From Candidatus Woesearchaeota archaeon (GTDB taxonomy: Archaea > Nanobdellota > Nanobdellia > SCGC-AAA011-G17 > UBA489): DNA of 44,568 nucleotides. Position numbers and translations under genes: made by a program. Of this stretch, positions 24,063 through 26,931 are shown one piece after another (within the stretch, counting starts at the first letter, position 1; each line of letters starts with the position of its first letter). Below the pieces are notes generated by a model. It worked only from the letters and a program-made list of their open reading frames with translations, made no database searches and was not told the origin of the DNA. The stretch covers positions 1 to 44,568 of the forward strand of contig JABHVN010000045.1 of NCBI GenBank assembly GCA_018658265.1, in the 5' to 3' direction.

Positions 24063-24148
24063 AAAGAAAAAATGGCTGATGCCTATTAAGAAGCGGCATC
24101 AGCAAAACACAAGACACGAAAAAGGGCGTCTTTGGGGGTTGCCCTTTT
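24063..24148 (-). terminator. Two tandem hairpins with T tracts downstream of ftsZ
   Basis: Hairpin A has perfect 8-bp arms, AAAAGGGC (24120-24127) and GCCCTTTT (24141-24148), with a 13-nt loop; its arm includes part of the ftsZ stop codon. Read on the minus strand it ends in T5. Hairpin B, 16 nt further on, has perfect 9-bp arms GCTGATGCC (24075-24083) and GGCATCAGC (24095-24103) with an 11-nt loop, followed on the minus strand by T6-C-T5. The layout resembles a bacterial intrinsic terminator pair. RNA stabilisation is an alternative. Confidence 0.65.
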
Positions 24149-25244
24149 AGTATGATTTTCTGGTTGGCGTATTTTCGTAGCCAACCATGTCGATGCCCAG
24201 ATCATCTGCGACCTGTACTGCTTGCTTAGTCACCTCTGTATGACTAGATTTTCCAAGGATGTATGGTGAGGTTACACCAGTAATAATGGTCATAATCCTC
24301 AATCTTCCTGCCATGCTTGGGTCAATTCTAGCTCCCCAGATTACGTTTGCGTCAGCATCCAAAGCTTCAGTAATGATCTCTCCGATTCTGTTAACTTCAT
24401 CTAAAGTTAGATCATCTCCACCACTTACATGAATCAAAGCTCCAGTTGAGCCATCATAACTTACATCCAGTAATGGATTTGTTAATGCTCTTCTTGTTGC
24501 TTCTTCAACACGAGACTCTGTATCTGATTCGCCTATACCTATAATTGCAACATCTCCATTAGACATAATTGCTCTTACATCAGCATAATCTAAGTTTACT
24601 AATGAAGGTACAGCAATTGTTTCTACAATTCCTTTAATCATTGTTGAGATTAACTCATTTGCAACAGCGAATGCTTGTTGAATAGGTAAGTTTCCTGCGA
24701 TGTTTACTAATCTATTATTGTCAATAACAATAACAGTATCACATTCTTCTCTTAATTGTTGTAAGCCAAATTCAGCTTTATCAACTCTAGCTCTTTCAAT
24801 TTCGAAAGGCATTGTAACAGTTCCAATAACAATTGCGCCTGTTTCTTTAGCCATTTGTGCAACAACTGGAGCACTTCCAGTTCCTGTTCCTCCACCAAGA
24901 CCAGCACATACAAATACCATGTCTGCATCCTTGATGAATTTTTTAATATCATTACCAGATTCTTTTGCAGCTTCTCTTCCTTTTTCAGGGAATCCGCCAC
25001 ATCCTAATCCTCTAGTTAAATCTGCACCAATTAGAAATCTTCCATCACAGCTGGTCATATCTAAATGTTGCTTATCTGTGTTAACAGCGTAAATTTTTGC
25101 ACCCTTAACTCCTTTTTTATGTAACCAGGAAACCATATTTCCTCCGCCACCACCACATCCGATAACACGAATGTTAGCTTCTCCTATAGGTGTTTGTTCT
25201 ATTGCCGGTGCATTTCTTAATGCGTCTTGTATTAAATTTTCCAT
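24147..25244 (-). CDS. ftsZ: Cell-division GTPase FtsZ
   Basis: 365 residues. The tubulin/FtsZ signature GGGTGTGS is at residues 117-124. It is preceded by the GGGGGN nucleotide loop (31-36) and the NTD segment AVNTDKQHL, and followed by the T7-side residues in TNPLLDVSYD. The protein polymerises into the division ring. It ends shortly after the GTPase/activation domains (GIDMVGYENTPTRKSY), with no long tail. The leader of about 45 nt has a GGGGG run about 11 nt before the ATG, and a TATA-like ACTATAATATAAAG lies at about 25311-25325. Two strong hairpins follow its stop. Archaea often carry two FtsZ; which paralogue this is was not determined. Confidence 0.96.
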   Translation of the reverse strand: MENLIQDALRNAPAIEQTPIGEANIRVIGCGGGGGNMVSWLHKKGVKGAKIYAVNTDKQHLDMTSCDGRFLIGADLTRGLGCGGFPEKGREAAKESGNDIKKFIKDADMVFVCAGLGGGTGTGSAPVVAQMAKETGAIVIGTVTMPFEIERARVDKAEFGLQQLREECDTVIVIDNNRLVNIAGNLPIQQAFAVANELISTMIKGIVETIAVPSLVNLDYADVRAIMSNGDVAIIGIGESDTESRVEEATRRALTNPLLDVSYDGSTGALIHVSGGDDLTLDEVNRIGEIITEALDADANVIWGARIDPSMAGRLRIMTIITGVTSPYILGKSSHTEVTKQAVQVADDLGIDMVGYENTPTRKSY

Positions 25245-25629
25245 TTTTTTCTTTTTCCCCCGTTGTTGGTTTTTTTGTTTGATTGCGATGTGTGTATGCT
25301 AGACCACAATAATCTTTATATTATAGTTCTAACTACAACTACTTTACGAGGTTTAATGATTTAATGATTTAATCGCTCCTAGAAATTAGTCAAACTATAA
25401 TATATATACAGATTTTAGCCGATCTGATTGAGGTTAAGTTTTAGCCGAACTTAACGATAGTCAATAATTGTTTTAGCCGAACAATATAACTAAGTTTTTA
25501 ATTCTATTAATGTAACGTAAGTTATATATAAATACCTTTACTCTGTAACATATAAAACAAAAAATATAAATGGTTATTTAACCAATTACTAAAATTAATG
25601 CATTCGAACAGTACAATACTAAAAAGAGC
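25245..25629. promoter_or_regulatory. Non-coding region between ftsZ and gatD
   Basis: 385 bp with no credible ORF. From left: the ftsZ leader and TATA-like element (25311-25325), a short direct repeat of TTTAATGA (25352-25359 and 25360-25367, with a partial third copy), and the three-hairpin array (25409-25485, listed separately). Next come an interrupted repeat TAAC-GTAA-GTTA (25513-25524) beside the TATA-like TTATATATAAATA, and a perfect palindrome with arms TGGTTA/TAACCA at 25571-25584. The right part is the probable gatD promoter. The density of repeats is far higher than in other spacers of this window. Confidence 0.6.
25409..25485. ncRNA. Three-hairpin array with a shared TTAGCCG loop, possible small RNA
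   Basis: The decamer TTTTAGCCGA occurs at 25413, 25439 and 25471. Each copy is flanked by arms that are complementary to each other but differ between copies: CAGAT/ATCTG (25409-25413, 25422-25426), GTTAAGTT/AACTTAAC (25433-25440, 25448-25455) and ATTGTT/AACAAT (25467-25472, 25480-25485). The loop is TTAGCCG in copies two and three, with one extra T in the first. Conserved loop with compensating stems suggests selected RNA or single-strand structure, perhaps binding a protein. Strand and transcript ends are unknown, so the ncRNA label is tentative. Confidence 0.45.
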
Positions 25630-26931
25630 GTGTTTAACTTGAAAAAAAACATTATTCCTAATACAAATATTAAGATAACAACTAAGGATTCAAGAACATT
25701 TGAAGGCCTTGTTCTTCCAGATACAACATCCCAAAAAGTTGTTCTAAAATTATCTTCAGGATATAATATAGGAATATTGAACAAAAATATTCAAGAAACT
25801 AAATCTCTAAAGAATCAAGTTTCAAAGAAAAACAAATTACCCAAACTAAAAACCAATAAAAAATTACCAACTATTTCTATTTTACATACTGGAGGTACAA
25901 TTGCCTCAAAAGTAGATTATGAAACTGGAGCAGTTTTATCTCAGTTCTCACCTGAAGATATAATCTCTATGTTCCCAGAAATCAAGGGTTTAGCCAATAT
26001 TGACTCTAAATTAGTTAGAAATATGTGGTCCAGCAACATGAATTTCAATCATTTTAACATATTGGCCAAGGCTGTTGAAAAAGAAGTAAAGAAGGGTGTA
26101 GACGGAATTATCGTAACTTTAGGAACAGATGCATTAACTTATGCCTCTGCAGCACTCAGTTTTATTTTAGAAGGAATATCCATTCCAGTTATCTTTACAG
26201 CATCACAAAGATCATCTGACAGAGGTTCTTCAGATGCATTCCTTAATCTATACTGTGCAGTTAAGTTTGCAAAGGAAGCTAATTTTGCAGGAGTTGCAAT
26301 ATGTATGCACGGTTCTTCAAATGATGATTACTGTAACGTTCTTCCTGCATGTAAAACTAAAAAATTGCATTCTTCTAGGAGAAATACTTTCCAACCAGTA
26401 AATACTGCCCCAATAGCAAAGGTAACAACTGAAAATATAGAGTTTTTCCCAGAAACACACCATAAAAAGAGAAATGATTCTAAATTAAAATTAAAATTAT
26501 TAAATCCTAAACTAAAACTAGGAATTTTAAGATTCCATCCTCATTTCCAAAGTTCAATGTTAGAACCAATTAAGAAATTTGATGGATTAATTATTGAGGG
26601 AACTGGATTAGGTAATGGTCCAGTTGAATGTGTTGACGAGTTTACGAAAGAAAATGAAAAAACAATCAAGACAATAACTGCATTAACAAAAAAAATGCCA
26701 GTTACAATGACCACTCAATGTGTATTTGGCAGAGTCAATATGAATGTTTACTCCTATGGGCGTAAAATCCTTGATTCTGGAGTCTGGGGCAACCATACGG
26801 ACATGCTACCAGAAACAGCATTTGTCAAATTAGCATGGTTATTAAGCAATTATAATAAAAAAGAAATAAAAGAACTTTATCACAAAAATTTAAGAGGCGA
26901 AATTTCAGAGAGAACTTTATACAATGACTGA
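25630..26931 (+). CDS. gatD: Glu-tRNA(Gln) amidotransferase subunit D
   Basis: 433 residues, the asparaginase-like subunit that releases ammonia from an amide donor for GatE. Residues 1-80 form the small N-terminal beta domain (KITTKDSRTFEGLVLPDTTS). The catalytic amidohydrolase has SILHTGGTIAS and IIVTLGTDAL with the nucleophile and second Thr, plus FTASQRSSDRGSSD. The start is taken as GTG at 25630; a TTG at 25639 is an equally good alternative. The stop overlaps the gatE start by 8 bases, so the subunits are made together. GatDE is an archaeal-specific complex for making Gln-tRNA. Confidence 0.95.
   Translation: MFNLKKNIIPNTNIKITTKDSRTFEGLVLPDTTSQKVVLKLSSGYNIGILNKNIQETKSLKNQVSKKNKLPKLKTNKKLPTISILHTGGTIASKVDYETGAVLSQFSPEDIISMFPEIKGLANIDSKLVRNMWSSNMNFNHFNILAKAVEKEVKKGVDGIIVTLGTDALTYASAALSFILEGISIPVIFTASQRSSDRGSSDAFLNLYCAVKFAKEANFAGVAICMHGSSNDDYCNVLPACKTKKLHSSRRNTFQPVNTAPIAKVTTENIEFFPETHHKKRNDSKLKLKLLNPKLKLGILRFHPHFQSSMLEPIKKFDGLIIEGTGLGNGPVECVDEFTKENEKTIKTITALTKKMPVTMTTQCVFGRVNMNVYSYGRKILDSGVWGNHTDMLPETAFVKLAWLLSNYNKKEIKELYHKNLRGEISERTLYND

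Follow-up and report, generated by a model that had tools for sequence, protein, structure and literature searches.

Why three hairpins with one loop and three different stems lie beside ftsZ in a woesearchaeal genome is the question that this locus raises. The window, the whole stretch of 44,568 nucleotides that was analyzed, is one of the 47 contigs of a 616,901-base (617-kb) genome. A first-pass annotation made from the letters had drawn attention to the hairpins, which are housed in the 385-bp gap between ftsZ on the minus strand and gatD on the plus strand, where gatD leads into gatE and two class II aminoacyl-tRNA synthetase genes. The genes and hairpins are as follows.

24147 to 25244, minus strand: ftsZ (Pfam Tubulin, 1.8e-45; FtsZ_C, 7.9e-33).
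25409 to 25426, plus strand: hairpin 1, CAGAT (25409 to 25413) with ATCTG (25422 to 25426), loop TTTAGCCG; in the minimum-free-energy (MFE) fold.
25427 to 25465, plus strand: outer stem ATTGA/TCAAT around hairpin 2, predicted in the MFE fold.
25433 to 25455, plus strand: hairpin 2, GTTAAGTT (25433 to 25440) with AACTTAAC (25448 to 25455), loop TTAGCCG; in the MFE fold.
25467 to 25485, plus strand: hairpin 3, ATTGTT (25467 to 25472) with AACAAT (25480 to 25485), loop TTAGCCG; in the MFE fold.
25630 to 26931, plus strand: gatD (Pfam Asparaginase, GatD_N), a neighbor outside the element; the array is kept where gatD is absent.

The decamer TTTTAGCCGA occurs three times in 77 bp, as had been claimed, at plus-strand positions 25413, 25439, and 25471, and the coordinates bear out stems of 5, 8, and 6 bp that are unrelated in sequence. 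A search of all 616,901 bases returned three matches to the decamer, every one in the array and enclosed by a stem, and none without complementary flanks; the reversed pattern gave one match. All three hairpins appear in the MFE structure of either strand. Folding z scores of the single sequence are only mildly below shuffles (-1.56 for the plus strand and -1.20 for the minus strand), and thus comparison with relatives was needed.

Relatives carry the array. Each of the other four genomes in the genus has hairpins with TTAGCC loops at the same place, and most of these keep pairing despite stem changes. Hairpin 1 reads CGGAT/ATCTG in genome G001, with a G-U pair on the plus strand, and CAGATT/AATCTG in G004; hairpin 2 reads AATTAAGTT/AACTTAATT in G004; and hairpin 3 reads GTTGTT/AACAAC in G001, a compensated A-T to G-C change relative to ATTGTT/AACAAT. 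Other genera of the same family (L012 and L026) have three hairpins with the loop CGCCAA, and most genomes of the order and class have two to five such hairpins upstream of ftsZ. CGCCAA is the commonest loop; GCCC types, the TTAGCCG of this genus, and CGCTCAA in G021 (by eye) are also found. The TTAGCCG of the first-pass annotation is thus one genus's form of a broader loop motif, RCCNA, which most families have as CGCCAA. Stems and spacing are highly variable between loci.

The array follows ftsZ. By motif count, the gap between ftsZ and its divergent neighbor holds an array in 36 of 50 sampled families and 114 of 142 sampled ftsZ regions, and several of the motif-negative regions carry variant loops. 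When 371 genomes were scanned for CGCCAA in three copies, 67 matched, compared with about 10 for the reversed pattern. Most of the AT-rich matches sit at ftsZ, including those for which the position of ftsZ is known, and the flanks of four others (L231, L233, L234, and L242) show the ftsZ start. A tandem repeat built of CGCCAACGTTTCTTTTCCTAAAAGAAAG units, at a site other than ftsZ, is present in one relative (L227, at 6608 to 6709 of contig 27 of G024). Moreover, the array is kept at ftsZ in six genomes in which gatD is elsewhere or not adjacent (G014, G023, G035, G046, G049, and G055). We reject a gatD leader or riboswitch, as the element follows ftsZ and not gatD where the two are apart. The earlier suggestion of a structured leader therefore fails for gatD; the array does lie wholly inside the predicted ftsZ leader, but in antisense. 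To the right of the array, an AT-rich conserved block at 25526 to 25575, TATATAAATA ... AAAATATATTTT, likewise accompanies ftsZ in genomes with another neighbor in place of gatD, and both the gatD promoter and a site for an activator of ftsZ transcription may lie within it.

Not every ftsZ gene has an array. Seven genomes of family f4 (G011, G051, G063, G064, G067, G069, and G070) each encode two ftsZ1-type genes. Where there are two ftsZ1 copies, the array is found at one at most. The array is absent from the complete genomes G019, G088, and G123, and it is therefore dispensable. G019, whose completeness is an estimate, belongs to family f12, other members of which bear the array. In array-less families (L128, L203, and L213, that is, G088, G148, and G151), a different, G-rich structured element lies upstream of ftsZ, with the pattern GGCTCYYC ... 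GGGG ... GGARAGCC and no Rfam match.

What is conserved in the array is a fold. For 128 distinct CGCCAA sites, whose stems played no part in their choice, pairing of the six flanking positions holds in 78% of cells compared with 43% after shuffling. The covariation score is 0.799, against 0.208 ± 0.018 for shuffled sites, with none of 500 shuffles as high, and a shift of the partners by a single column lowers it to 0.31 or below. When right arms were permuted among 168 sites, the mean number of pairs fell from 4.1 of 5 to 2.2, and no permutation exceeded 2.5. In the complete genome G038, just one of 210 CGCCAA sites has at least four perfect flanking pairs, and that one is in the array. Stems are thus conserved as pairs, and their unrelated but compensated sequences rule out simple duplicated DNA sites.

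The fold belongs to one strand. Read on the plus strand, the non-Watson-Crick stem pairs comprise 30 G-U and 6 A-C (p = 3.5e-5, indicative rather than exact, as the compared sequences are related by phylogeny). The mean folding z score is -2.07 for the plus strand and -0.72 for the minus strand, with 66 and 14, respectively, of 122 loci below -2. The excess of G-U pairs and the greater stability both point to the plus-strand RNA as the selected molecule. We conclude that the array is under selection as a folded RNA of the plus strand. The annotation had argued for a folded RNA over duplicated DNA sites, and covariation, wobble asymmetry, and folding stability agree with it.

The same data bear on whether the element acts as DNA, be it a replication origin, a cruciform, or a set of duplex protein-binding sites between divergent promoters. 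An AT-rich intergenic position between divergent genes would suit such an element, but a fixed loop with variable stems and asymmetric wobble pairs is unexpected for double-stranded sites, and the GC skew of one complete genome gave no clear origin signal. The raw cumulative skew of that genome, G038, is weak and lacks a clear two-arm shape; on a circular contig, its minimum would be some 12 kb away from the array. The skew was uninformative and gave no evidence for an origin. We regard a DNA element of any kind as extremely improbable.

How the array might be transcribed was predicted with a BRE-TATA weight matrix, trained by expectation maximization on the gene upstreams of a single relative genome, G038. 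For 113 of 190 genes there, the best site ends 20 to 24 nucleotides upstream of the ATG, a spacing that indicates leaderless transcription. Most G038 genes with an intergenic upstream are apparently leaderless, and ftsZ, with its GGGGG site, is an exception. In the window the predicted features are as follows.

25308 to 25323, plus strand: BRE/TATA element AATAATCTTTATATTA, putative promoter of a small RNA (7.4 bits here, modest).
25346 to 25500, plus strand: predicted small RNA of about 155 nucleotides, starting 22 to 23 nucleotides after the TATA element, with a T-run (25495 to 25499) at its 3' end.
25350 to 25372, plus strand: 5' element GTTTAATGATTTAATGATTTAAT, a direct repeat with tandem ATGATT, at the 5' end of the predicted RNA.
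25526 to 25541, minus strand: BRE/TATA element GTAAAGGTATTTATAT, putative distal ftsZ promoter, facing ftsZ (7.9 bits here, modest).
25245 to 25504, minus strand: predicted ftsZ 5' leader of about 260 nucleotides, placed from the promoter calls, with the array inside it in antisense.
25257 to 25261, minus strand: candidate ftsZ ribosome-binding site GGGGG (CCCCC on the plus strand), within the predicted leader.

Over 93 array loci, the left promoter scores a median of 10.8 bits on the plus strand compared with 3.2 on the minus strand, and the right promoter scores 11.6 bits on the minus strand, facing ftsZ, compared with 4.5 on the plus strand. In this genome the orientation of the right promoter is ambiguous, because the best plus-strand match in the same area reaches 9.9 bits compared with 7.9. 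The ftsZ-facing promoter lies a median of 243 nucleotides from the ATG at 101 loci with an array; in 6 of 11 second ftsZ1 copies lacking one, the promoter is only 60 to 68 nucleotides from the start codon. Between array and ftsZ, minus-strand scores have a median of 3.2 bits, and most loci have no comparable promoter there. Above threshold, promoter pairs are convergent in 122 of 151 regions and also divergent in 73; because divergent pairs pass as well, the orientation rests on score medians, spacing, and conservation. We infer two convergent promoters flanking the array, and the ends of two transcripts that would overlap on opposite strands. With the right promoter facing ftsZ, the plus-strand RNA would be antisense to a ftsZ leader of about 240 nucleotides. 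Thus, ftsZ may be transcribed from a start on the far side of the array, giving a long leader that the small RNA opposes along its whole length.

The predicted small RNA has a recognizable start. In 86 of 122 loci, the left promoter motif is followed after 21 to 23 nucleotides by a conserved AGAA. Pyrimidines with few G residues come just before it, as at a start site, and its spacing equals that from TATA box to ATG in leaderless genes. In this genus AGAA has diverged to ACGAGG, and the start given above was placed by homology. The median predicted length is 145 nucleotides over 122 loci. At the other end, the plus strand is weakly T rich before the right TATA box (T, 0.42; A, 0.36), which is weakly compatible with termination. 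Equivalents of the tandem ATGATT element were seen by eye in L019, L021, L029, L012, L026, and L038. Several families of the order carry the element as the loop of a hairpin, such as AAGTTTA-ATGATTAAATGAT-TTAAACTT in L029, and other families have an RCCNA hairpin at its position. A peptide-coding reading was dropped, as the longest open reading frames in the predicted RNAs (median, 19 codons) are no longer than those in shuffles (18 codons).

A distal promoter and a long leader would also be expected if the functional molecule were the ftsZ 5' leader itself, a structured minus-strand RNA whose UUGGCG loops are bound by a protein or by the ribosome. That the element always adjoins ftsZ is in keeping with this, but the wobble pairs and folding stability favor the plus strand, on which a well-placed promoter with a conserved start is also present. 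We consider a functional leader of this kind improbable.

Alternatively, the two transcripts might need only each other. The plus-strand CGCCAA loops would pair with the UUGGCG loops of the ftsZ leader, and the duplex would then extend, giving kissing-loop antisense control with no dedicated protein. Plasmid antisense RNAs with kissing loops include CopA of R1, RNAI of ColE1, and Inc RNA of IncI, and the YUNR U-turn motif has been described in antisense RNAs. The putative convergent promoters would yield full-length antisense partners, the minus-strand UUGG fits YUNR, and identical loops permit any loop to kiss any other. Predicted full cis complementarity to a long leader and short loops are further points of likeness, and the UUGGCG/CGCCAA pair of the IncI type is an analogy for the array loops, although a literature search on that pair found nothing relevant. 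The array differs from the plasmid RNAs in having several hairpins with the same loop and in being chromosomal, at a division gene. Moreover, folding is not under selection on its target strand (mean z, -0.72), and A-C mismatches are avoided. For pairing in cis, the hairpins need not share a loop, and the ACCAA repeats that family f30 carries unstructured are not needed either; the GCCGA and ACCCA versions give no YUNR at that position. Kissing loops with no protein are therefore, in our estimate, unlikely.

In the 122 predicted RNAs, RCC[ACG]A occurs 347 times on the plus strand and 19 times on the minus strand, with 60 expected, and copies per RNA range from two to nine, mostly two to five. 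Family f30, of another order, carries three to eight copies of ACCAA, ACCGA, or ACCCA at the same place, mostly without hairpins. The short motif is therefore the thing that is kept, and the hairpin is one mode of presenting it; that one family has the motif but has lost or never had the hairpins sets ligand recognition apart from structure. RCCNA, displayed in loops, is probably the recognized part. Loops that are identical on unrelated stems and that change jointly from one lineage to the next suggest that a single ligand is shared, the simplest candidate being a protein.

Candidate proteins were sought in the genomes. CsrA (PF02599) was found in none of 28 genomes tested, and the cold-shock domain is absent from this genome and from many other array genomes. 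LSM is uninformative as a candidate because it occurs in 27 of the 28. The Rfam 15 covariance models gave no match to the element at an E value of 1 or less; the nearest, RF00724, scored 16.7 bits (E = 2.4) against a cutoff of 55 bits.

The anatomy most resembles CsrB. CsrB-type small RNAs carry one short motif in many copies in loops or single-stranded parts, and six-nucleotide loops are common (PMC7652899). Like CsrB/CsrC (RsmY/Z) of the gammaproteobacteria, the array RNA is noncoding and has a repeated loop motif on stems whose sequences are not conserved. Its motif, however, is RCCNA rather than GGA, with loops such as CGCCAA, TTAGCCG, and GCCC; it has 2 to 9 copies compared with about 18; and it is archaeal, fixed beside ftsZ, and predicted to be antisense to ftsZ. 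With no GGA loop, and with no CsrA in the 28 genomes, the array RNA is not a member of the CsrB family. The sponge-like RNA proposed at first pass fits this anatomy of a repeated motif in loops, and the array RNA may titrate a regulatory protein.

A sponge could act in trans, its place beside ftsZ being merely historical. Several identical loops, as in CsrB, would fit such an RNA, as would the lack of a conserved second site for the full 8-mer TTAGCCGA elsewhere in the genus. The few other sites differ between genomes, and a trans RNA target reached through the full 8-mer was dropped. Nevertheless, linkage to ftsZ is kept class-wide while the other neighbor changes, which is more than a purely trans-acting sponge would need and which a trans role alone does not explain. 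We think a solely trans-acting sponge very improbable.

On balance, we favor a plus-strand small RNA that binds its partner at several sites, as CsrB does, and acts in cis on ftsZ. The computational comparison establishes that the fold is conserved, that it belongs to the plus strand, that the array is linked to ftsZ, and that its motif is repeated. From these we infer a protein ligand and control of ftsZ, and the small RNA probably binds a partner and helps set the amount of FtsZ. The plus strand would give a separate RNA of about 155 nucleotides, encoded head to head with ftsZ, whose leader would be unusually long and would have this RNA as its antisense. The hairpins of the RNA would hold RCCNA single stranded, as UUAGCCGA in this genus and as CGCCAA in the majority of families, and a conserved RNA-binding protein would dock on the copies as CsrA does on CsrB. 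The RNA could then pair or interfere with the ftsZ leader in cis while keeping the protein close by.

Control of ftsZ by small RNAs has precedent in bacteria, where DicF and StfZ act on ftsZ. They resemble the array RNA in being small RNAs tied to ftsZ expression; they are bacterial and lack the multihairpin, shared-loop design, and kinship in sequence or structure is not expected. CdrS is a transcription factor reported to control ftsZ2 in haloarchaea (PMC7439475, PMC8406309); this too is archaeal ftsZ control, by a DNA-binding protein where the array product is a predicted RNA.

To our knowledge, how division is controlled in DPANN archaea is largely unknown, and our literature search found no paper on Woesearchaeota noncoding RNA or on archaeal ftsZ leader RNA. 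Perhaps, and we offer this tentatively, the array belongs to an undescribed class-wide archaeal system in which a multihairpin antisense RNA fixed at ftsZ either controls an RCCNA-specific RNA-binding protein or is the means by which that protein acts. The candidate RNA is conserved over the whole class, is physically at ftsZ, and has a short motif that could serve directly as bait. Through it, the CsrB design of one motif, many loops, and free stems would reach into the archaea, with another motif and another protein. If so, division in these minimal archaea would be set by an RNA-protein circuit that is Csr-like in function but unrelated.
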